From Methylopila jiangsuensis (GTDB lineage Bacteria; Pseudomonadota; Alphaproteobacteria; Rhizobiales; Methylopilaceae), in assembly GCF_027922305.1 (NCBI RefSeq), contig NZ_BSFK01000010.1, forward strand, positions 434,001 to 498,000: a stretch of 64,000 nucleotides of DNA. Reading direction: 5' to 3'. This document shows positions 36,115 to 47,849 of this stretch, piece by piece. The notes under the pieces are model-generated. The model saw only the letters and a program-made list of their open reading frames with translations, was not told the origin of the DNA and ran no database searches. Made by a program: the position numbers and the translations under genes. How positions within the stretch are numbered: position 1 is the stretch's first letter; each line of letters begins with the position of its first letter.

Positions 36115-37293
36115 GTGACGCGCGCGCTGCTCGCCTGGGAGGGCGGCGCCGGACGCGGCCATCTGCTGCATCTGCGCGCGGTCGCCGAAGCCCTCGGCGG
36201 CCGTTTCGCGTTCGACGCCGCGTTGTGCCGCATGGAGCATGCGGCCGAGATCGCGCCGGTCTGCGACGTCGTGGTGCAGGGCGCGGCGCTTTACGACCGG
36301 GAGCCGCGCCGCCGTGGGCCGGGGGCGGTCGGGGCCGCCACCTGGGGCGAGTTCATGGGCGACATGGGCTTCGGCGACGCCGAGGTGCTGCGCGTCCAGA
36401 TCGGCTGGTGGATCGAAGCCATGAAGGCCCGCCGCGCGGAGCTGGTGGTGGCGGATTTCGCCCCCTGCGCCCAGCTCGCCGCGCGGGCGCTGGGCCTGCC
36501 CGTGATCGTCACCGGCGTCGGCTACGCCGTGCCGCCGCCGGACCTCGACGCTTTTCCCGTGTTCCTCACCGATCGAACCGCCCGCCTGCACGACGAGGCG
36601 GCCATGGTCGCCGCCGTCAACGCAGCCGGCGCGGCCTTCGGCCTCGCGCCCATCGACCGGCTGGCGGCGGTCTACCGGGCGGACGTGGCGCTGGCGCGCA
36701 CCCTGCCGATGCTCGACCCCTATGACGGGCTCCGGGCCGAGCCGCCGCTGCCGCCGCTCGCCGACGTTCCCGACGCGCCGTCGGCGGGGGAGGGCGACGA
36801 GGTGTTCGCCTATTTCTCCACCACGGAGCGGAACGACCCCGCTCTTATGGAGGCGATCTGCGATCTCGGCGCGCCGGTGCGGCTGTTCCTGCCCGGCGCC
36901 GACGACGCGCTCGCCGCCCAGCTCGAGGCCCGCGGCGTGCTGGTGGAGCGCGCGCCCGTGCCTGTGGATCTGATCGCCCGCCGTTCGCGGCTGGCGCTGC
37001 ACGCCGGCCAGCATGGGGCGCTGTGCATGGCGCTCGCCTGCGGCCTGCCTCAGGCGGCCGCGCCCCAGCATCTGGAGCAGCTCTATCACGCCCGCCGCGC
37101 GCAGGAGGCCGGGGTGCTGACGCTGCTGCCGCGGGGCGAGCGCGATCCGGCCGCGCTGCGCGCGATCCTGCGCGCCGCGCTCGCGGACGAGGACGCCGCC
37201 AAGCGCGCCCGCGCGCTGGCGCATGAGCTGCGGCCGCTGTTCGGCGACGCGCGAGCCGCGATCCGGAGCCGGCTGTCCACGCTTCGGGGCTGA
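36115..37293 (+). CDS. Glycosyltransferase, GT-B fold (UGT/MGT-like)
   Basis: This 392-residue protein has an N-terminal LLAWEGGAGRGHLLHLRAVA segment, like the GxGH motif of MurG/UGT enzymes. A C-terminal donor-site region contains LHAGQHGALCMALACGLPQAAAPQHLEQ, the HxGxxS-like and P-x-x-x-EQ pattern of GT1-type enzymes. The sugar donor and acceptor are unknown. It starts at GTG 36115, 7 bp after the barrel-like gene, so both probably share a transcript. Confidence 0.82.
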   Translation: MTRALLAWEGGAGRGHLLHLRAVAEALGGRFAFDAALCRMEHAAEIAPVCDVVVQGAALYDREPRRRGPGAVGAATWGEFMGDMGFGDAEVLRVQIGWWIEAMKARRAELVVADFAPCAQLAARALGLPVIVTGVGYAVPPPDLDAFPVFLTDRTARLHDEAAMVAAVNAAGAAFGLAPIDRLAAVYRADVALARTLPMLDPYDGLRAEPPLPPLADVPDAPSAGEGDEVFAYFSTTERNDPALMEAICDLGAPVRLFLPGADDALAAQLEARGVLVERAPVPVDLIARRSRLALHAGQHGALCMALACGLPQAAAPQHLEQLYHARRAQEAGVLTLLPRGERDPAALRAILRAALADEDAAKRARALAHELRPLFGDARAAIRSRLSTLRG

Positions 37294-37435
37294 CGGCTGC
37301 GCCTCGATTGGGCGCCGTTTTCCTGTGCGCCCCTCCGGCGTTCTACGGATGCGGGGCCCGCGGCCGCAGGCGTACGGTTCATGCGCTCAAAAACACCACG
37401 CGGCGGAAACGTCGCGGCTCTCGGGGGGAAGCGCC

Positions 37436-40400
37436 GTGGCCTATTTCTATGGCACGCCGGATGCGGAGCGGCCCACGCCGACCGCCGACGCGGACTACTT
37501 CTATGGCCAGGGCGGCGCGGACATCCTTGAAGGCGCGGGCGGCGACGACAGCCTGTCCGGGGGGGCCGACGACGACACGCTGGACGGCGGCGAGGGGGCG
37601 GACAGCCTCGCGGGCGGAGACGGCCAGGACCGGATATCGGGCGGCGCCGGCGACGACGTGATCTCGGTCTACCCGTACGAGACCGGCGCGGACACGATCG
37701 ACGGCGGCGACGGCGTCGATCAGCTCTATCTGTCCGTCTCCTCCACCTCGGCGGCGATCACGCTCAACGTGGGCGCGAACCAGGCCGCGGCGCAGATCCT
37801 GCCCGACGGCACCTCCGTCATCCGCATGGAGCGCATCGTCTTCAGCGGCGGCGACGGCGCGGACCGGATCACCGGCGGCGCCTATGACGACAGCATCTAC
37901 GGCGGCGGCGGCGACGACATCCTGTCCGGCGGCTCGGGCGGCCGGGACAACCTGCGCGGCGAATCCGGCGAGGACGTGCTGCGCATCCTGTCCGCGACCG
38001 GCGGATCGCTGGACGGCGGCGCGGACGACGACGGCCTCCACGGCGGCGAGGGCCACGACTATCTCTATGGCGGCGCGGGGGCCGACCTGATCGGGGGCGG
38101 CGGTGGCGACGACGTGATCGACGGCGGAACCGGCGACGACGACATCGACGCCGGCGCGGGATCGGACAGCATCGCCGTGCGGTTCGACGACGGCTATGAC
38201 GACATCGACGGCGGCGCGGGCGTGGACAGCCTGACGCTGGACCGCACCGCCTCTCTCGCCGGCCTGACGCTGAGCCTCGCCGCGCCCAACGTGGTCCAGA
38301 ACCTGGGCGACGGCACGCGGATCGTCCGCATCGAGCAGCTCGACTTCACCGGCGGCGCAGGCGGCGACGTGATCACCGGCGGCGCGCTCACCGACCGCAT
38401 CCGCGGCGGCGAGGGCGCGGACGTGCTGAGCGGCGGCGGAACCGGCGGCGATTACGACGTGCTCTACGGGCAGGGCGGCGACGACCGCCTGATCGGCACG
38501 TCGGGCTACGACTATCTCTATGGCGGCGCCGGCCGGGACACGATCGTCATGAGCGCCGACGGCGATTACGCCTATGGCGAGGCGGACGACGACGTCATCC
38601 AGGGCAGCGACGGCGCGGACCAGATCGAGGGCGGCGGCGGCCGCGACGTGGTCGCCGCGGGCGGCGGCGACGACGTCGTCACCGTGGGCGCGGAGGACGG
38701 CGCCGACGACATCGACGGCGGCGCGGGCGTGGACATGCTCTATTTCGCCCGCGGCGGCTCGGTGGGGCTGACGCTGAGCCTCGCGAACCCGGCCGTGGCG
38801 CAGACGCTGGCGGACGGCTCGCGCATCGTCGGCGTGGAGCGCATCGACTTCGACGGCGGCGCCGGACGTGACGTGATCACCGGCGGCGCGCTGGCGGACA
38901 GGCTGGACGGCGGCGCCGGTTCGGACGTGCTGAACGGCGGCGGCGGCGACTACGACTCGGTTTCCGGCGGCGACGGCGACGACCAGCTCAACGGCGGCGA
39001 GGGCTACGATTATCTTTATGGCGGCGAGGGACGCGACGTCCTGAACGTGTCCGCCGACGGCGACGCGGCCTATGGCGACGGCGGGAACGACCGCATCAAC
39101 GGCTCCGGGATCGGCGACGCGACGCTGTCCGGCGGCGACGGCGCGGACGTCGTCTATGGGCGCGGCGGGGCCGATTATCTCTACGGCGGCGACGGCGCCG
39201 ACCATCTCGACGGCGGCGCGGGCGACGACCGAATGTATGGCGGTCGCGGAAACGACCGCTACGTGGTCGACAGCGTCAACGACCAGCTTGGGGATGAGAG
39301 CGCGGAGGCGGCGGGCGGCGTCGATCTGGTGCTGTCCTCCGTGGACTGGACGCTGGCGGACGCCTTCGAGAACCTGACCATCAGCGGCGCCATCGGCCGG
39401 CGCGGCGTGGGCAACGCGCTCGCCAATCGCCTCACCGGAGGAAGCGGCGACGACACGCTGATCGGCCTCGGCGGCCGCGACACGCTGAACGGCGGCGCGG
39501 GCGCGGACCGCATGGACGGCGGCGCGGACGACGACGCCTACTACGTGGACTCCGTCGGCGACCGGGTGGTGGAGGCGGCCGGCGGCGGAACCGACGTGAT
39601 CAACAGCGCCATCAGCTTCGCGCTGGAGGGACTCAACGTCGAGAACCTGACGCTGACCGGAACCGCCGCCATCGACGGGACCGGCGACGCCGTCGCGAAC
39701 GTTCTCACCGGCAACGCCGGGGCCAACCGGCTCGACGGACGGGGCGGCGCCGACGTGATGCGCGGCGGCGCCGGCGACGACGTCTATGTGGTGGACGTCG
39801 CCGGCGACACGGTTGTCGAGGCCAAGGGCGCCGGGACCGACACGGTGGAATCCGCGATCACTTTCTCGCTGTCCGGCCTGTTCGTGGAGAACCTCGTCCT
39901 CGGCGGCGCCGCCAGGGACGGTTTCGGCAACACGCTCGACAACGCCATCACCGGCAATGGGCTCGCGAACCGCCTCACCGGCGGCGACGGCGACGACACG
40001 CTGGACGGCGGCGCCGGAGCGGACCGCATGGAGGGCGGGCGCGGCGCCGACGCCTATGTGGTGGACAACGCCCGCGACGTGGTGGTGGAGGCGAACGTCG
40101 CCGGCGTCGACACGGTGCGCGCCTCGGTCAGCTTCTCGCTCGCGGGCCAGTTCCTCGAGAACCTGACCCTGACCGGGAACGCCAACCTCAACGCTGCCGG
40201 CAACTCGCTCGCCAACGCGCTGACCGGCAACGCCGGCCGCAACGTGCTGAACGGCGACCGCGGCGCGGACGTCATGGCCGGCGGCGCCGGCGACGACGTC
40301 TATTACGTCGACAACGCCGGCGACGCGGTGGTCGAGGCCGCCAACGGCGGGGTGGACCGGGTGGTGAGCTCGGTGACGTTCTCGCTCGCGGGCCAGCACA

Positions 40401-40849
40401 TCGAGAACCTGACGCTCGGCCGCACCGGCGCGATCGACGGCTTCGGCAACACGCTGAGCAACGTCATTCTCGGCAACGCCGGGGCCAACGTGCTGAACGG
40501 CGGCCTCGGCCAGGACACGCTCACCGGCGGCGCCGGGGCGGACGTGTTCGTGTTCGACGGCAAGCTCGGCCTGAACAACATCGACCGCATCACCGACTTC
40601 TCGGTGACGGACGACGTGATCCGGCTCGACGACGCCGTGTTCCGGGGCCTTGCGGCCGGAGGCCTGTCGGCGGGCGCGTTCCACCTGGGCGCGGCCGCGG
40701 CGGACAACGCCGACCGCATCCTCTACGACGCCGGAACCGGCGCGCTGCTCTTCGACCGGGACGGGGCCGGCGCGACCTACAAGGCCGTGCAGTTCGCGAC
40801 GCTCGCCGCCGATCTGGCCCTGAGCGCGGGCGATTTCGTGGTGGCGTGA
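37436..40849 (+). CDS. Large RTX-type calcium-binding protein, probable type I secretion substrate
   Basis: The 1137-residue protein starts at GTG 37436 behind GGGGGGAAG; longer upstream frames are noise. There is no signal peptide. It is packed with GGxGxDxLxGG nonapeptides that bind calcium in a beta-roll. Residues about 77-607 form three long modules, each with SLAxPxVxQxLxDGxxIVxxE and GGAGxDVITGGA cores. Residues about 608-1035 form five shorter modules with VVDxxGDxVVEAxxxGxDxVxSxxxFSL and ENLTLTG. The last 100 residues (NNIDRITDFSVTDDVIRL to SAGDFVVA) look like a C-terminal type I secretion signal. No ABC exporter, fusion protein or catalytic domain is nearby. Confidence 0.88.
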   Translation: MAYFYGTPDAERPTPTADADYFYGQGGADILEGAGGDDSLSGGADDDTLDGGEGADSLAGGDGQDRISGGAGDDVISVYPYETGADTIDGGDGVDQLYLSVSSTSAAITLNVGANQAAAQILPDGTSVIRMERIVFSGGDGADRITGGAYDDSIYGGGGDDILSGGSGGRDNLRGESGEDVLRILSATGGSLDGGADDDGLHGGEGHDYLYGGAGADLIGGGGGDDVIDGGTGDDDIDAGAGSDSIAVRFDDGYDDIDGGAGVDSLTLDRTASLAGLTLSLAAPNVVQNLGDGTRIVRIEQLDFTGGAGGDVITGGALTDRIRGGEGADVLSGGGTGGDYDVLYGQGGDDRLIGTSGYDYLYGGAGRDTIVMSADGDYAYGEADDDVIQGSDGADQIEGGGGRDVVAAGGGDDVVTVGAEDGADDIDGGAGVDMLYFARGGSVGLTLSLANPAVAQTLADGSRIVGVERIDFDGGAGRDVITGGALADRLDGGAGSDVLNGGGGDYDSVSGGDGDDQLNGGEGYDYLYGGEGRDVLNVSADGDAAYGDGGNDRINGSGIGDATLSGGDGADVVYGRGGADYLYGGDGADHLDGGAGDDRMYGGRGNDRYVVDSVNDQLGDESAEAAGGVDLVLSSVDWTLADAFENLTISGAIGRRGVGNALANRLTGGSGDDTLIGLGGRDTLNGGAGADRMDGGADDDAYYVDSVGDRVVEAAGGGTDVINSAISFALEGLNVENLTLTGTAAIDGTGDAVANVLTGNAGANRLDGRGGADVMRGGAGDDVYVVDVAGDTVVEAKGAGTDTVESAITFSLSGLFVENLVLGGAARDGFGNTLDNAITGNGLANRLTGGDGDDTLDGGAGADRMEGGRGADAYVVDNARDVVVEANVAGVDTVRASVSFSLAGQFLENLTLTGNANLNAAGNSLANALTGNAGRNVLNGDRGADVMAGGAGDDVYYVDNAGDAVVEAANGGVDRVVSSVTFSLAGQHIENLTLGRTGAIDGFGNTLSNVILGNAGANVLNGGLGQDTLTGGAGADVFVFDGKLGLNNIDRITDFSVTDDVIRLDDAVFRGLAAGGLSAGAFHLGAAAADNADRILYDAGTGALLFDRDGAGATYKAVQFATLAADLALSAGDFVVA
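37664..39256 (+). repeat. Three in-frame RTX modules, long type
   Basis: Module starts lie near 37664, 38171 and 38675 (residues 77, 246 and 414). Each opens with a V(I/V)(S/T)V or SIAV strand and a TGADTIDGG/YDDIDGG/GADDIDGG block. A 40-residue insert with a DGTRIVRIE-type strand follows, then several nonapeptides. Copies two and three are the most alike. Confidence 0.75.
39257..40540 (+). repeat. Five in-frame RTX modules, short type
   Basis: Modules of about 80-90 residues begin near 39257, 39530, 39770, 40040 and 40286. Each runs from YVVDxxGD through FSLxGxxxENLTLTG and GNxLANxLTGN to a short nonapeptide block. The DNA copies have diverged, so this is an old expansion. Confidence 0.78.
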
Positions 40850-40889: not shown

Positions 40890-41645
40890 TCAAGTCTGAT
40901 CGCTGGAAATCCTCGAACTCTTACTGTTGACGATGTGCTGAACGATCGCAGGGATGATGCATACGGACGAAATTTCGGGCTTCTCGCCCATTGTCGACCC
41001 CATGCTTTTGATGCCTTCTGCAAGGGCAGGGTTTTTTTCGATTACATCCAAATGTTGAGGGACGAGCGATGCGCTCACCAAAAACTGGTCGACATGCCGG
41101 GGAAGTCGAGCCCAGTTAATTCGTTCCAGCAGCTTTCTCGCGCCGGATTTTGAAACGAAATAGCCGTCGCCGCCGGGTGTAGATATGCCGCTAGGTCGAG
41201 TCGCCGCGACTTCCGCGAAAGGATAGGTGGTCACTGGGCTGCTTTTTTGATTAAAATGAGAAGAAATTCTATTATTTGCAAAATAAAGATCAAAATTCTG
41301 ACTAAAAAAATTAGAATCAATAGAGGATATTGAGCTATTTATGACAATATCGTCTTCAAGAATGAGCGTGAAATCCTTTTCCAACGTAAGCGAGGTTTCC
41401 CATGCCTTGATGTGACTTGTGAGGCATCCGAAGGTGCCGGGAAAATTGTTGGCGGCGCGCCCGCCGATCTTGACGCGCTTGAGCAGACCACGGGGGAGCG
41501 AGGCGCCGTTGATGGCGGATAGTCTGTGGAACTGTAAGCCGAAATCGGAAATTTGCTTTGAGACAGAATTAAAACGCTCAGTATCCCTGTCTAGATTGAT
41601 CACTATTATATTGAAATATTGGCCTTCTTGTGCATCATGGCTCAT
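40890..41645 (-). CDS. Glycosyltransferase family 25 (LPS/LOS-type)
   Basis: This 251-residue protein has GT25 hallmarks: FNIIVINLDRDTERF at the N-terminus, FGCLTSHIKAWE, and the acidic metal site LILEDDIVI. A late GGDGYFVSKSGARKLLE segment also fits. GT25 enzymes transfer galactose or glucose in lipooligosaccharide outer cores. The coding sequence is visibly AT-richer than the chromosome, a sign of transfer. A good promoter candidate lies just upstream on the minus strand (41687-41715). It ends 40 bp from the RTX gene. Confidence 0.86.
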   Translation of the reverse strand: MSHDAQEGQYFNIIVINLDRDTERFNSVSKQISDFGLQFHRLSAINGASLPRGLLKRVKIGGRAANNFPGTFGCLTSHIKAWETSLTLEKDFTLILEDDIVINSSISSIDSNFFSQNFDLYFANNRISSHFNQKSSPVTTYPFAEVAATRPSGISTPGGDGYFVSKSGARKLLERINWARLPRHVDQFLVSASLVPQHLDVIEKNPALAEGIKSMGSTMGEKPEISSVCIIPAIVQHIVNSKSSRISSDQT

Positions 41646-41686
41646 GATCGTGCTACTTTATTTTAGCTCCCTGCGTCAAGATCGCA

Positions 41687-41715
41687 ATTGTATCCGGCTC
41701 TTGCTTCGGCGACAA
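41687..41715 (-). promoter_or_regulatory. Candidate sigma-70 promoter for the GT25 gene
   Basis: On the minus strand TTGTCG (41710-41715) and TACAAT (41687-41692) are separated by exactly 17 bp. Transcription would start about 35 nt before the ATG at 41645. This would make the GT25 gene independent of the large fusion gene upstream. Confidence 0.5.
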
Positions 41716-41815
41716 GAGTAAAATCCGGACAAGGACGCACTGTGCCTATCTGGGATTTGTGTCGTTTCAAAGGACAAAGCGCAGACGTCGCCCAAGCGTC
41801 GTCCGCCGGCGGCCC

Positions 41816-44587
41816 TCAATCGGCGTGGTCCGACGGAGGCTGAGCCTGTTTGCCGCCCAGCAGCGCGGCGCGCATCGAATCAAAACTGATCCGCCGTCCA
41901 CGGGTCAGTCGCATCGTCCAGCGCATCAGTGGTTGCCTGAGGGACAAGGGTTCGTTGTCGCCATCCTGACGACGGGCAGCTTTGAGGCGCCGCAGTGACG
42001 AGCGTATCCGCCGCCTAAACGCGTCGGCGTCCTTTGTTTCCAGCCAGTACTGTAGGCTTTTGGAGCGAGCCCTTTCCCTCAGGACCTGAACGAAGGCGTC
42101 GGCGATGGAGACATCGTCCAGAAGCCTTTCGCGTATGACCGGCATCGGCAGCAGGGAGACGTGCTCGGCCATCCATGCGCGGAACTTCACGGCTTTCTGC
42201 TTGTGCCGGAAGCCGCCGCCCTGAGACTGCGCCACCCGCGTGATGGGCGTGGCCTTCAAAACCAGTTCTTTGGACTCCAGTCCCGACTGGATGATCGATT
42301 CGGCGAGCGCGCTGCGGGTTATCACGACGCTGTTGCCCAGACCGTCGGTCTTGTAATCCGGCAGCCAAGCGTCGCCGAGTGAGATGTCTGACAGTTCCGT
42401 CATGACATCCGTGCAAAGATCGCAAGCTCTCGATTTGAACAGGCCGGTGCCCCACATGTCGCCTACGCGGCGCATTTTCATAGTGTGGGTTTTATTGTTC
42501 TCATCTATGGCGGAAAACGAGTAGTCGTTTGCCGTGCTTTTCGCGTCCTTGACGCGGTATTCTGGCGCAAAAAAGTTTCCGCGAACGCCAGCGTTCTGGG
42601 CGAGATAATCCGTGTATGAGCGGCTTTTCAGGCCTCCGCAGATAATGCCCAGCAAAAATGGAATTTTCTCCCGGAACTCGGGATAGTAGTACTGCTTCAG
42701 GCGTACGGCCTTAATGAAACAGGCGACCCCGGATACCGCAACACGTCCGTTTTTTTGTTCGATTACGGAAAAAAGCTCATCAAGAGAGACTGGATAGTAT
42801 CTCGTCTTTGACATCTTGCGGATGTCGTCATTCTTATCAAAAATGCAGTACTTGTATCTATCATTTACGTCATTTTGCACGACGAAAAGATAGTCGACAT
42901 CGCCACGTTCAAGAAGTTTCTTGAAAACGTAAGTGGCTATGCCGCCAGAAGACGAGGTGGGGCGATATTCGATGCTGTAGCCGATGTAGGAGCCTTCGAA
43001 GCGACCGCATCGGGGATGAGACTGTTTTGCATCGGCGAGAAATATATCCGCCAAGGCGTCCTCGTCTCGAACGGCGGCCTCGGGCTCGGGATTGAACGGA
43101 CACACCTTCACGGCGCTCGCCGGCACGTCGGCCGCGCTTGCGCCCGGCGCCAGTTCGGGCGTTAGAAAGCCGTCCTCATTCCAGGCCATCCTGAGCGCGC
43201 CGCGGGATTCCGAAATGCACACGCCGCAGCCTGTGCACAAGACGTTCAGCGGCTGGCAAACATGGCTTGGCGCGCCGGCGGCGGACCTCACGCCCGTGGG
43301 CGTCCCTCCGGTCGAATGACTGACATTCGAGCGCAGCGCCACCACGGTTCCATCGCCCGGGCCGCTGCGTCCGGACTGGCCCGCTGGGGAAGGCGGCCTT
43401 GCCGGCCGGTCGCCGGTCAGGGCCTCCTGCAGGAACCTGAATGACCGGGTGCGAAGCGCGTCCAATCGCGCGTTGACGGCGCTCCAGTCCACAGGCTGCG
43501 ATATTTTCTGCAGGTCGATCTGCGAGGAGTGCAGCACGAGGCGCTCCTCTAAGCCGAACATCTTAAGCAGTGACGTAAAGCGTGCGAGACCTCTCGCGGG
43601 ATTTCCATAGGCCAGGAAAGGCTTGTTGAAGATGATCGAGAACACCACGCCATGGAAGGAGTCCGTGACGACAAACGACGCTTTATGAAACGAGGCGAGC
43701 CAGCCTTCGACGGACTTGTCGCCCTTGATCTCGGCCTGAGCGCCGGAAGGGTCGGCCTCGCGCCCGTCGGTCGTGCGCACGGTTAAACCCAGACGTTGCG
43801 CGAGCGCCGCAATCGTATGGTTCTTGTCGTCATTGACGTCGAGAATGTAGGTCAGCAGCGTCTTGTCGTCCGGACGCCGTCTGTCGAGCGAAAATGCGCT
43901 GACGTAGTGGCTCTTGTCGTGGAGCAGAGTTGGATCCAGAACGTGCTGCGCCGCAGCGTTCAGGTGATCGCGGCACAGGTCGACGCCATTGTCCTCGCGC
44001 ACAGACACCGCGTCGAATTTTTGGATGAGGCGCGTGGCGACCGAGGTCTCCTCGCCACTGAACTCCCAACTGGGCGATGCGAAAGACGCCGCGTAACTGA
44101 TGCGCCTTGTCGTCGTGTCATCCTCGGGCAGAAAACCAAGGAAAAAATCGGACAGCATGCTTCTGGCGTATTTTGGACGCCAGACTTGGTCGCTGCCGAC
44201 GATGATCGCATCGAAACCGTAATGCGGTATTTTGTTTTCCAAATGGGACGTCGACAAAAACGGCGTCGTTGCAGGAAATATGTGCTTCTGGATAAATTTG
44301 GTGTTTGGCGCCGTAGACGACAGCGAAGTGAACGACTTCGCCATAAGGGGCGTATCGGCCTCGGCCCGATCGGCCAGGCTGGCGATGTCAAAGTCGCGTG
44401 GCGGAATGCGCCTGTTGATGAGGACGGGAGAATGCCCCAGCTGCCGCAGTGCGGTGACCAAGGCGTAGGCTTGCAGGTTGCCGCCGTAATTCCGGTTCAA
44501 AGGAAGGGTCAGAACGCCAACTTTCAATTTTGGCGCTGCGCCGCCGTCGGCGACTGGATTCGACGGTTCGTCGGTATCAGGCTTCAT
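41816..44587 (-). CDS. Fusion of polysaccharide pyruvyl transferase and FrhB-type iron-sulfur flavoprotein
   Basis: A single uninterrupted frame of 923 residues from ATG 44587 (a TTG at 44602 is possible). Residues about 20-395 are a polysaccharide pyruvyl transferase (CsaB-type): NYGGNLQAYAL, GSDQVWRPKY and the DSFHG motif. A Pro/Gly/Ser-rich linker (about 396-440) leads to ferredoxin-like cysteines CTGCGVC (Cys451, 454, 457) and a later CP (Cys496). Next comes a coenzyme F420 hydrogenase beta-subunit (FrhB) region with SSGGIATYVFKKLL, GVACFIKAV, GIICGG, CDLC and DISLGDAW. The basic C-terminal tail (about 795-923) may bind membrane. The reaction is unknown; pyruvylation or redox modification of a surface glycan is inferred. 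Confidence 0.85.
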   Translation of the reverse strand: MKPDTDEPSNPVADGGAAPKLKVGVLTLPLNRNYGGNLQAYALVTALRQLGHSPVLINRRIPPRDFDIASLADRAEADTPLMAKSFTSLSSTAPNTKFIQKHIFPATTPFLSTSHLENKIPHYGFDAIIVGSDQVWRPKYARSMLSDFFLGFLPEDDTTTRRISYAASFASPSWEFSGEETSVATRLIQKFDAVSVREDNGVDLCRDHLNAAAQHVLDPTLLHDKSHYVSAFSLDRRRPDDKTLLTYILDVNDDKNHTIAALAQRLGLTVRTTDGREADPSGAQAEIKGDKSVEGWLASFHKASFVVTDSFHGVVFSIIFNKPFLAYGNPARGLARFTSLLKMFGLEERLVLHSSQIDLQKISQPVDWSAVNARLDALRTRSFRFLQEALTGDRPARPPSPAGQSGRSGPGDGTVVALRSNVSHSTGGTPTGVRSAAGAPSHVCQPLNVLCTGCGVCISESRGALRMAWNEDGFLTPELAPGASAADVPASAVKVCPFNPEPEAAVRDEDALADIFLADAKQSHPRCGRFEGSYIGYSIEYRPTSSSGGIATYVFKKLLERGDVDYLFVVQNDVNDRYKYCIFDKNDDIRKMSKTRYYPVSLDELFSVIEQKNGRVAVSGVACFIKAVRLKQYYYPEFREKIPFLLGIICGGLKSRSYTDYLAQNAGVRGNFFAPEYRVKDAKSTANDYSFSAIDENNKTHTMKMRRVGDMWGTGLFKSRACDLCTDVMTELSDISLGDAWLPDYKTDGLGNSVVITRSALAESIIQSGLESKELVLKATPITRVAQSQGGGFRHKQKAVKFRAWMAEHVSLLPMPVIRERLLDDVSIADAFVQVLRERARSKSLQYWLETKDADAFRRRIRSSLRRLKAARRQDGDNEPLSLRQPLMRWTMRLTRGRRISFDSMRAALLGGKQAQPPSDHAD

Positions 44588-45273
44588 TCCTGCAGGCCTC
44601 AAACGCGGTTTAATTCTGGAAATATTTAGGCATGCATCGTTGTGCGAGCCCTATATCATGGGTCTTTCCAGCATGAAATTCGGAGCGCCATAATGTCGCT
44701 CCGACCCTATCGGAAAAGCTCGGGGAGGTCTACCGGCTGAGTGGGGGCGGGCTTTCTTCAGTGTGAGGCAAGTCATGGGCGCGCATACTGGGGTGTGGGA
44801 CGCGCTTGTCGCATAAGGCGCAAAATTTTAATTTTCTGATCTAAGGTATGACATTGGTGTGGCGGCTCTGGCTGGCTCGGATTCTGGGCTCTTCAATAAG
44901 AGGGCGGTCGGCCGTCGTGCGGGGAGATTTCAGCAGCTTCGTCGCACGTCGTCAGGCTCAAGCGGTAAGGGTTCCTGCGCCGTGCAAGATAAACTTTTTG
45001 CAGTGCGGGAAATTGACAACGCCAATGAGGGAGACTTACGCTGACGCCGTCCGTATGCCTTAGAGCGTTCCCAAACTTGCGCCTGCAAGAAAGGCCTGCA
45101 AGCCATACATGGATAATTTTTTTAATACAAAAAATAATTTTTACCTGAATTGAGAAATTCATCAGGTCGTCATGAAGTGGGGCGTTTGAGCTCTTCGGCA
45201 GGAATGTTTTACGAGATGGCGCGGGCTGCGGACGCTTGCGTTTGAGCGTTGAGTTGGGGGCTTTGGGGCGGAA
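44588..45273. other. 686-bp gene-free, AT-rich region
   Basis: The short frames here (for example near 44848-45063) lack any recognisable protein. Visible structure includes a perfect 8-bp hairpin at 44680-44704. A poly-A/T tract lies at about 45105-45145, followed by a small imperfect hairpin CCTGAATT...AATTCATCAGG at 45144-45166. A TTGACA hexamer lies at 45013-45018 without a good -10 partner. The composition differs from the chromosome, so it may be leftover transferred DNA or a regulatory region for two divergent glycan genes. Confidence 0.6.
44680..44704. repeat. Perfect 8-bp inverted repeat
   Basis: TCGGAGCG and CGCTCCGA flank a 9-nt CCATAATGT loop, about 95 bp before the start of the pyruvyltransferase fusion gene. 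It may be an operator or an RNA hairpin. Confidence 0.45.
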
Positions 45274-46836
45274 ATGTCTGAAAAGGTGATGGACGTCGCG
45301 AAGCTTAAGGCTGAGCGCGACAAGCTCAAACAGCAGCGCGACGAGGTGCGCGAGGCGCGCAACGGTTTCCGGGTGGAGCGGGACCAGGCGCAGGCCGCGC
45401 TGAAGGCCGCCGAGCGCGCCCGGAGCGCGGCCGAGGCGGAGCGGGAGAAAGTCGCCGCCGAGCGGGATCGGGCGCTGGCGGAGCTTGAGGCCTTGCGGGC
45501 CGGCGCCAAGACGGCGCGGAAGAAATCGGAGATCGCGGCCGACGCTGCGGCGCTGCAGGACAAGGATCGACTGATCCAGCTCGAAAAGCGCCGCGTGCAG
45601 CGGCTGGAGCAGCAGATCGAACGGCTCGCCCATCGCGTGTTCGAGCAGGAGGCGGTGCTCGACAGCCTCGGGCAGGTCCGGCAGCAGTTCGACAGGGTCG
45701 CGGATCTCGACCAGACGGTCGCCTCCGGACGGCGGCTGCTGGCGTCCCTGAGCGGATCGCTGGCGCTGTTCGGCTCCCTGAAGGAGACGTTCGACGCCAA
45801 GCTTTCCGAACTGCAGGCCCACGTGGACCTGTCGCTGGCGGCGGAGCTGAAGCAGTACGAGCGGTTCGTCGAGACCCTCTCCTCCCTCACGGTGGAAACC
45901 AAGACGGCCCTCGCCCCGGTGGTGTCGGAGACGCCCGTGGAGACGTTGTTCCAGCCTTCGGTTCGCGACCAGACCAAGCCGGAGAAGGTGAACGGCAAGC
46001 CGGTGGGAGGCGCCCGCTGGCGCACCATGGCGGAGGAGCGATTCCAGAAGGAGGTGGCGTTCCGGGAGTCGGGAGAGTTCGCCCGCGTGGAGGCCATGCG
46101 CGGCAAGCACGCCGGCAAGCGCGCCTTCATCATCGGCAACGGGCCGTCGATCAACACTCAGGATCTGACGCTGCTGAAGGACGAAATCACCTTCTGCGCC
46201 AACTGGTTCATCAACCACCCGCAGTTCAACGACATCCAGCCTTCGTACTATTGCGTGTCGTCGCATGAGATGTTCGGCGGCTGGGGCAAGACGCCGAACC
46301 TGAACGAGGACTTTCGGGAGAAGCTGAAGCAGAAGCTGACGCCCGAATCGACGATGTTCTTTTCGTTCGCCTTCAGGAATTACATGAAGGAACTGGGGTT
46401 GCTGGACGAGGAGCAGCTGCGCTATCTGATCTTCGACCGGCCCAAGCTGCTGGTGGACGAGGTCGGAAGCCAGAATTTCGATCTCGGGCGCTGCATGGAC
46501 GACGCCTACACCGTGCTGCTGACCTTCGCCGTGCCGCTCGCGGTGCATTTCGGGATCACCGACCTCTACCTGATCGGTTGCGACTGCGATTACGGGCTGA
46601 CCACGCCGGAGGCGCCCCGCGCCTATTTCTATGCGCCGTCCGAACACAAGACGAGCAGCACCAAGTTCGAGAACATCGCCCGCATCTGGGGGGATGACGG
46701 GCCGATCTTCCAGTCCTACCGGATCTGCTCCGACACGGCGCTGATGAAGGGGCTGCGCATGTGGAACGCCACGGCGGGCGGGCGCCTCGAGGTGCTGCCC
46801 CGGGTGTCCTACCTCGACGTGGTCGGCCGTTCGTGA
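45274..46836 (+). CDS. Coiled-coil protein with a C-terminal MptE-like/DUF115-type domain
   Basis: This 520-residue protein has two halves. Residues about 5-130 are a long, charged coiled coil rich in Glu, Arg, Lys and Ala (KAERDKLKQQRDEVREAR). Residues about 280-520 begin KRAFIIGNGPSINTQDLTLL, a glycine-rich nucleotide-type loop. They continue through FCANWF, YYCVSSHEMFGG, LYLIGCDCDYGL and a closing LEVLPRVSYLD. That half resembles the DUF115/MptE-like group found in motility-associated and surface-glycan proteins. The ATG at 45274 overlaps nothing upstream, but its stop overlaps the GT8 start (GTGA). A sugar-phosphate or nucleotide-sugar role is inferred. Confidence 0.75.
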   Translation: MSEKVMDVAKLKAERDKLKQQRDEVREARNGFRVERDQAQAALKAAERARSAAEAEREKVAAERDRALAELEALRAGAKTARKKSEIAADAAALQDKDRLIQLEKRRVQRLEQQIERLAHRVFEQEAVLDSLGQVRQQFDRVADLDQTVASGRRLLASLSGSLALFGSLKETFDAKLSELQAHVDLSLAAELKQYERFVETLSSLTVETKTALAPVVSETPVETLFQPSVRDQTKPEKVNGKPVGGARWRTMAEERFQKEVAFRESGEFARVEAMRGKHAGKRAFIIGNGPSINTQDLTLLKDEITFCANWFINHPQFNDIQPSYYCVSSHEMFGGWGKTPNLNEDFREKLKQKLTPESTMFFSFAFRNYMKELGLLDEEQLRYLIFDRPKLLVDEVGSQNFDLGRCMDDAYTVLLTFAVPLAVHFGITDLYLIGCDCDYGLTTPEAPRAYFYAPSEHKTSSTKFENIARIWGDDGPIFQSYRICSDTALMKGLRMWNATAGGRLEVLPRVSYLDVVGRS

Positions 46837-47849
46837 GCCCCGCGCCGTCGGCCAAGAAGCCGAAGCTCTGTCTCGCCACGGTGGTGTCCGATCCGTTCGT
46901 GCTCGGCGCCATCGTTCTGCTCAACAGCTTTCTGGCCAAGAACCCATGGTTCAACGGCGATATCGTCATTATCTCCGAGGTGACGAACTCGCCGCTGTCC
47001 CGCAGCAACAGAACCCTGTTGCGGGAACATTTTCCCGGCCTGAAGTTCCGCGACATCGACGCGACGGCTTATGAAGGCGTGTTCCACTTCGCGGAGACTG
47101 TGGTGGAGACGCCGGCCCGGTTGCGGGCGGCGTTTTACATTCTGGAATGCTTCACGCTGACCAATTACGAGCGTGTGGTCGCGCTCGACAGCGACATGCT
47201 GGTGACGGGCGATCTGCGGGAGCTGTTCGAGACCCAGGCGCCGTTCTCGATCGTGCGCGCCTACGACCACGACCGGAACCTGCCGCTACCCTATTTCAAC
47301 ACCGGCACCATGGTGATCGGCGGCGAAGGCCTGCGGCGCGACATGGTGTCGGAAATCTCGGACTTCCTCGCCACGGTCACCAAGGTCAACCGTTCCCACG
47401 GAAAAGCCGACCAGTCGGTGCTGAACGTCTACTTCCGCGGGCGGGACAAGAACTATCTCGACGAGAAGTACAACTTCTCGAAGCGCCTGGTGCCGCCGGA
47501 CGTGGCCTCGATTGAGGACTTCATCGCCGAGAACGACGTGCGGATTCTGCATTTTCTCGGCGAAAAGCCCTGGAACATCAAAATCAAGGAGATGGAGTGG
47601 GACTACCGCCGCCACGAGGAATTGTGGCTTAGGGAGTTCCTGTCCTGCGCCAAGCCCACCGCGGTCGGCCGGCTGGTGCGGGAGCTGATCGCGCAGGACA
47701 AGGCGCTGCGCCGCGCCCTGCAGCGCCGCTACGTGCCGGCGGACGACCAGCGCGTGATGGAGAAGACCATCGAGCGCGCCTTCGCCAAACGCACCTACGC
47801 CTCCGTGTTTCAGGACAAGCCCAAGGCCGCGTCGGACGCGGAAGCCTGA
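46833..47849 (+). CDS. Glycosyltransferase family 8 protein (glycogenin-like GT-A)
   Basis: A 338-residue GT-A enzyme starting at GTG 46833, coupled to the preceding gene by a GTGA overlap. Key features are the N-terminal strand CLATVVSDPFVLGAIVLLNS, the DxD-type metal site VALDSDMLVTGDL, the acceptor-side YFNTGTMVIGG, and the late HFLGEKPWNI motif. GT8 enzymes use UDP-sugars. A second GT8 gene of the same architecture lies at 59202. The linkage with the coiled-coil protein suggests they act together on one surface glycan. Confidence 0.88.
   Translation: MSPAPSAKKPKLCLATVVSDPFVLGAIVLLNSFLAKNPWFNGDIVIISEVTNSPLSRSNRTLLREHFPGLKFRDIDATAYEGVFHFAETVVETPARLRAAFYILECFTLTNYERVVALDSDMLVTGDLRELFETQAPFSIVRAYDHDRNLPLPYFNTGTMVIGGEGLRRDMVSEISDFLATVTKVNRSHGKADQSVLNVYFRGRDKNYLDEKYNFSKRLVPPDVASIEDFIAENDVRILHFLGEKPWNIKIKEMEWDYRRHEELWLREFLSCAKPTAVGRLVRELIAQDKALRRALQRRYVPADDQRVMEKTIERAFAKRTYASVFQDKPKAASDAEA

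Follow-up and report, generated by a model that had tools for sequence, protein, structure and literature searches.

Gene Structure and Protein Architecture

The 64,000-nucleotide stretch of the Methylopila jiangsuensis genome analyzed here (hereafter the window) contains a gene in which a polysaccharide pyruvyl transferase is joined in frame to an FrhB-type iron-sulfur flavoprotein, and this gene lies among glycosyltransferase genes (Table 1). The uninterrupted frame of 923 residues described in the original prediction, which gave no strand, was recovered on the minus strand; the plus strand has 11 stops across 41816-44587. An upstream TTG start at 44602 would give a 928-residue form of the protein, and this form was used for the Pfam search. 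The first half matches PF04230 (PS_pyruv_trans; E 3.4e-33, 116.2 bits against a curated cut-off of 25.3). The second half consists of FrhB_FdhB_N and FrhB_FdhB_C domains, with matches to both profiles of the pair above their cut-offs (PF04432: E 7.1e-22, 78.3 bits against 23.3; PF04422: E 6.1e-11, 42.7 bits against 22). The motifs named in the prediction (NYGGN, GSDQVW, DSFHG, and CTGCGVC followed by CP) are all present in the translation, and its flexible linker corresponds to a segment predicted to be disordered (residues 395-443).

A structure model built from 56 aligned sequences (mean predicted local distance difference test score, pLDDT, 86.4; predicted template modelling score, pTM, 0.58) has two ordered halves separated by this disordered linker. 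In Foldseek searches, the FrhB half matched subunits of F420-reducing hydrogenases, F420-dependent sulfite reductase, and 7-hydroxymethyl chlorophyll a reductase (HCAR). The transferase half gave weak matches, with GT-B-like enzymes alone among the 50 matches listed; the solved pyruvyl transferase 5ax7 was absent from those 50. The sequence profile of this half matches 5ax7 with an E-value of 2.6e-8.

We rejected sequencing error or a frameshift as the source of the fusion, given the existence of fused relatives and the distribution of guanine plus cytosine (GC) over codon positions. An excess of GC at third positions persists through nine 100-codon blocks of the frame, linker included. The block 43000-43499, which contains the linker, has a GC content of 0.684. 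An artifact is very unlikely because the plasmid gene QEW23941.1 of Marinibacterium anthonyi encodes the same fusion as a single gene, and 10 of the 80 relatives described below are also fused in frame.

Recurrence of the Fusion and Specificity of the Partnership

Genome contigs were scanned with an alignment of FrhB halves only, which returned 260 relatives, and the best 80 were kept. Architectures were counted with a broad transferase profile (a narrow profile misses divergent neighbors). Fusion in the order seen in the window occurs in 10 of these best 80 relatives, a transferase gene lies at most 150 bp from the FrhB gene in 58, and a further 10 have one within 6 kb, in one case on the opposite strand. 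The 10 fused cases include L084, in which the frame contains the end of the transferase domain alone and which was omitted from the fused group of the tree and from alignment A3. A third domain, a glycosyltransferase, stands at the N terminus of two of the fused proteins scanned. In one alphaproteobacterium a single frame encodes glycosyltransferase, FrhB, and transferase, so that the fusion runs in the reverse order. The product of QEW23941.1 (53.6% identity over 98% of the query) has the same domain order as the window protein and differs from it in about 95 extra N-terminal residues and in its location within a larger surface-glycan locus on a plasmid; its record, named coenzyme F420-reducing hydrogenase subunit beta, assigns it no function. 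The fused proteins require two changes on the transferase tree, which implies that the fusion arose at least twice, once in the reverse order and with a glycosyltransferase joined as well.

The original prediction described these domains as separate neighbors known from exopolysaccharide loci and expected the two activities to work together. That they work together is well supported by the recurring fused, adjacent, and reversed forms. It also allowed that the fusion might prove to be common and to have an assigned function; recurrence was found, whereas the passages of open-licence literature that we searched assign no function to an FrhB-transferase fusion.

Co-occurrence as a by-product of the abundance of both genes in glycan clusters was rejected by background counts, which cover alphaproteobacteria only. 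Among alphaproteobacterial FrhB regions, 31 of 35 have no transferase within approximately 5 kb (37 matches, with that of the window and the weak match G148 omitted). Similarly, 58 of 60 PF04230 regions have no FrhB gene within approximately 4 kb and two have one (the matches of the window and G344 and the weakest match omitted). The two families are therefore not generally tied to each other, but the FrhB subfamily of the window is tied to the transferase. Judged from gene arrangements, FrhB of this type thus serves the transferase as a dedicated partner.

Two further arrangements were noted. In Sinorhizobium meliloti pSymB, the transferase and FrhB genes overlap and lie beside genes for inositol-3-phosphate synthase and glycosyltransferases, and the same pair is matched in many Sinorhizobium plasmids. 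Another alphaproteobacterium encodes an FrhB protein of 962 residues (L058:2955-5840, plus strand) with no transferase nearby; its first 598 residues have no Pfam match.

Conserved Residues in the Two Halves

Eight cysteines are invariant in all 33 aligned FrhB rows and, by analogy with the family, are expected to bind iron-sulfur clusters. Three other positions set apart FrhB proteins that are linked to a transferase (L073, with a row too short, was omitted from this comparison). F624 is found in 86/87 linked and 0/30 unlinked proteins, K654 in 87/87 and 0/30, and K626 in 87/87 and at most 2/30 (the five commonest residues were tabulated). The F624/K654 signature would be fitting for a distinct anionic substrate. 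The second half of the window protein shares its fold and sequence family with FrhB/FpoF, F420-dependent sulfite reductase, and HCAR, but it differs from them in the F624/K626/K654 signature, in being joined to a glycan enzyme, and in a host that lacks CofD. The CofD family (PF01933) was not found in the genome that carries the window, which is 100% complete, although uptake of F420 from outside is possible. The "F420" in the family name is misleading because of this absence, which makes F420 an unlikely cofactor.

Histidine and arginine residues of the H312 and R197 type are catalytic-site residues of PF04230 pyruvyl transferases. In the transferase alignment, the H312 column is His and the R197 column is Arg in all 169 rows. 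The transferase half retains both residues and should use phosphoenolpyruvate (PEP). The window protein shares PF04230, the invariant His and Arg, and an N-x-G near the N terminus with Pvg1p (PDB 5ax7), CsaB, and WcaK. Unlike WcaK and 5ax7, which have Arg two residues before the His, it has Ser at this position (S-F-H rather than R-x-H). This Arg is present in 57/76 unpartnered and 13/93 partnered transferases (lost in 19/76 and 80/93, respectively). As a marker of partnership the loss was rejected: the Fisher test gives p = 3e-16, but this is a clade effect, and nine independent pairs gave no support.

Pairs in O-Antigen Clusters of Escherichia coli

DNA searches with enterobacterial pairs located FrhB genes in 6, 11, and 11 of 5426 E. 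coli genomes, depending on the query, and the pair of a Klebsiella aerogenes plasmid had no match in E. coli. We looked at nine of these regions (six clusters and three plasmids). In a sample of 295 genomes from the family of Buttiauxella izardii, PF04432 was found in the B. izardii genome alone. Strains TUM18780 and WEC have the gene order wzx-FrhB-transferase-GT-GT-wzy-GT-glf-GT (GT, glycosyltransferase), with wzx and wzy named as O124/O164 family; the annotation of TUM18780 splits the transferase into two fragments, and the WEC transferase is whole. This pair belongs to the same two protein families as the halves of the window protein (FrhB 48.8% and transferase 37.6% identical) and has the same key residues. 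It differs in being two genes with overlapping ends, in FrhB-transferase order, within a complete O-antigen cluster. In 2013C-3252 and LZHX12, wzx lies between FrhB and the transferase, in clusters named O69. The galF-gnd interval of IAI1 and AHM9C68I carries flippase-FrhB-transferase-EpsG; in the O8 strain IAI1 (L164:11948-20009), the complete cluster from galF to gnd reads flippase-FrhB-transferase-EpsG-GT2-galE-GT. WcaK, the colanic acid transferase encoded in the same E. coli regions, lacks a neighboring FrhB and falls outside the main partnered clade.

Enteroinvasive E. coli O124 and a Shigella have identical O antigens (PMC5723341, in the part available), and S. dysenteriae carries 4-O-[(R)-1-carboxyethyl]-D-glucose (PMC10609480, likewise). 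Apart from the pair, the O124/O164 cluster contains a flippase, a polymerase, four glycosyltransferases, and glf. As these other genes are otherwise assigned, FrhB and the transferase are the evident candidates for forming the lactyl group, unless the genes for it lie elsewhere.

Exchange of the Reductase Partner

Plasmid pBDSF8-3_3 carries a transferase-GT2 stretch in two copies (99.3% identity over 1272 bp, one gap), of which one follows FrhB and the other a nitroreductase, a member of another flavoenzyme family. A nitroreductase-transferase pair is also present on p30COLEC-2, where an FrhB remnant lies beside a second transferase, and on a third E. coli plasmid the nitroreductase is accompanied by a truncated transferase. 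Chromosomal relatives of the plasmid nitroreductase were found in 2 of 295 Buttiauxella-family genomes, in both with a transferase in the same locus and in one within a cluster that has Wzc and an initiating sugar transferase. Furthermore, a nitroreductase gene overlaps a transferase gene in one alphaproteobacterium. Five genomes with the FrhB pair were searched for the nitroreductase, and none had it. The replacement of FrhB by a nitroreductase on the plasmid is suggestive but not conclusive.

Pieces of capsule or O-antigen clusters, with a flippase, FrhB or nitroreductase, transferase, and glycosyltransferases, were seen on plasmids of E. coli and Klebsiella aerogenes (L161, L163, L257, and L038), in the first three among insertion sequences. 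In another locus (L197:3608-5563, minus strand), a short-chain dehydrogenase is fused in frame to a PF04230 transferase of the same clade; this dehydrogenase is perhaps a third kind of reductase partner.

Klebsiella capsules offer a comparison of genes with structures. According to the available text of PMC4616057, pyruvate ketal is absent from types K8, K22, K37, and K66 although they have pyruvyl-transferase genes; two nitroreductases and one coenzyme F420 hydrogenase are among the cps genes. K22 contains 4-O-[(S)-1-carboxyethyl]-D-glucuronic acid (from a title cited in PMC3857182), and K37 differs from it by acetylation alone (PMC3857182, in part). We take K22 and K37 to be the types that have the two nitroreductases. 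For the Cobetia capsule, the available passages of its paper describe a ketal only.

Proposed Reaction and Alternative Explanations

Taken together, the fused protein is probably a two-step glycan-modifying enzyme that makes a lactyl ether. In this scheme, the N-terminal half, a GT-B-like pyruvyl transferase, would transfer the three-carbon unit of PEP to a single hydroxyl of a sugar, and the product would stay an enolpyruvyl ether without ring closure to a ketal. The C-terminal FrhB-type half, with flavin adenine dinucleotide and two [4Fe-4S] clusters, would then reduce the enol double bond. By analogy with relatives, ferredoxin, flavodoxin, or a similar small carrier, and not F420, might donate the electrons (a guess). 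A surface glycan would thereby end up with a 1-carboxyethyl (lactyl) ether. The original prediction had already put forward, as one idea, that an enolpyruvyl or pyruvyl group is reduced to a lactyl-type group. This idea has gained indirect support from the O124/O164 pair, the nitroreductase exchange, and the K22 ether without a ketal, and it is still a reaction that we infer; the cofactors, electron donor, and product are likewise predictions.

The scheme would follow the logic of peptidoglycan synthesis, in which MurB carries out a flavin-dependent reduction of enolpyruvyl to a lactyl ether. The preceding step, by MurA, is enolpyruvyl transfer from PEP (PMC6801904, in the part available). The likeness would be one of chemistry between unrelated proteins, with no MurA or MurB family match found in the fused protein in Pfam or NCBIfam, and the acceptors would presumably be surface glycans instead of peptidoglycan.

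Several observations weigh against a lactyl-ether synthase. Two of the best 80 FrhB relatives show no transferase in the stretch covered, and L196, a member of the partnered transferase clade, has no reductase among the six neighbors scanned. The pTM of 0.58 does not fix the mutual placement of the two halves in the fused model, and the Arg loss failed as a marker of partnership. Recombination between the two plasmid copies could give the exchange of FrhB for nitroreductase without selection. The main text of PMC4616057, in the part available, does not name the K types that carry the nitroreductases or the F420-hydrogenase gene. In E. coli, enzymes for the lactyl group could sit outside the galF-gnd cluster. 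The O124 antigen is presumably the lactylated antigen of S. dysenteriae 3, and the published E. coli O69 antigen presumably lacks a lactyl group, though its cluster has the pair. Finally, the K8 type combines a transferase gene with the absence of a ketal, and no lactyl group is known to us there.

Alternatively, the FrhB half could act on the sugar, reducing or dehydroxylating a residue to which the transferase then adds an ordinary pyruvate ketal. The varied substrates reduced by FrhB relatives (chlorophyll derivatives, sulfite, and F420) and the invariant His and Arg that the transferase retains from a ketal-forming family are compatible with this, but we consider it unlikely. The partner enzyme stays constant while the neighboring glycosyltransferase and sugar genes vary among the loci viewed, a near-identical transferase occurs behind a nitroreductase instead of FrhB, and the lactyl ether of S. 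dysenteriae can be explained without a deoxy or reduced sugar. A role of the FrhB half merely in redox sensing or as an oxygen-dependent switch, with the transferase making a normal ketal, seems quite improbable. It would fit the family name of PF04230, which denotes ketal formation, and the fact that WcaK and most alphaproteobacterial family members work without FrhB. Yet the absence of FrhB beside WcaK, which forms a ketal and is encoded in the same E. coli regions, also argues the other way, as do the K22 and K37 types that have a transferase gene and no ketal in the available text. Moreover, F624, K626, and K654 suggest a substrate site, and two unrelated flavoenzyme families occupy the place beside the transferase.

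It is also conceivable, at a very low probability, that the gene came in recently as part of a polysaccharide cluster and has no function. Its location in a low-GC stretch, its absence from all 12 genomes of the same genus that were examined, and the lack of a flippase or polymerase gene seen beside it point in this direction, whereas the conserved cysteines and catalytic residues are all intact, the frame is uninterrupted, and the gene has two or three glycosyltransferase genes around it.

Beyond the window, a broader form of the lactyl-ether proposal is possible, and we advance it tentatively. PF04230 transferases with a dedicated flavin reductase could be widespread, unrecognized lactyl-ether synthases and an independent reinvention of the MurA/MurB route. 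The reductase would be interchangeable (FrhB, nitroreductase, and perhaps short-chain dehydrogenase), and its family might set the configuration, (R) with FrhB and (S) with nitroreductase. The configuration may follow this rule in one case each, namely, S. dysenteriae/O124 for (R) and Klebsiella K22, with its inferred gene assignment, for (S). Surface polysaccharides with lactyl ethers are known from Shigella, Klebsiella, Proteus, Salinivibrio, and a cyanobacterium, according to the passages available. No enzymes assigned to their synthesis were found in the passages of open-licence literature searched. If the lactyl-ether proposal holds, one gene pair would explain this group and supply its genomic marker, the name "F420 hydrogenase" would be corrected in E. 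coli and other such bacteria, and the enolpyruvyl-then-reduce chemistry of peptidoglycan would have arisen a second time, with unrelated proteins. For testing the proposal, the fused form would be a convenient single polypeptide.

Genomic Surroundings

The fused gene and the glycosyltransferase genes lie in a stretch of low GC content (40890-47849; approximately 0.44-0.68, minimum 0.438) within a window of 0.698 (Table 1). This stretch was likely acquired, and the surroundings look like a small acquired glycan-modifying island, with no flippase or polymerase gene seen beside the fused gene. The fused gene has no match in any of the 12 genomes of its genus that were examined, and matches were found in 5 of the 61 genomes of the whole set, the source genome of the window included. 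A genome from the same family carries the transferase and FrhB halves as separate, overlapping genes.

Table 1. Features of the fused gene and its neighbors in the window.
Feature	Coordinates	Strand	Remarks
Fused gene	41816..44587	minus	923 codons plus stop; open from 44587 down to 41816
Pyruvyl-transferase domain (PF04230)	43403..44527	minus	Residues ~21-395; invariant N33, G35, R197, D218, H312
Linker	43259..43405	minus	Residues 395-443 (~50 residues); GC-rich; pLDDT <50
First iron-sulfur site (predicted)	43100..43237	minus	C451, C454, C457, C496 (CxxCxxC ... CP)
FrhB_FdhB N- and C-terminal domains	42251..42979	minus	Flavin-binding by family
Second cysteine set	42413..42721	minus	C623, C650, C722, C725; with subfamily residues F624, K626, K654
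Glycosyltransferase family 25 (downstream neighbor)	40890..41645	minus	GC 0.475
Coiled coil and MptE-like (DUF115-type) protein	45274..46836	plus	Below Pfam cut-off
Glycosyltransferase family 8	46761..47849	plus	Open frame; true start possibly further in

Adjoining the putative glycan island, a plus-strand frame of 1208 residues (37223-40849) has many GGxGxD-type repeats and, by eye, resembles a calcium-binding surface protein of the RTX/haemolysin type.

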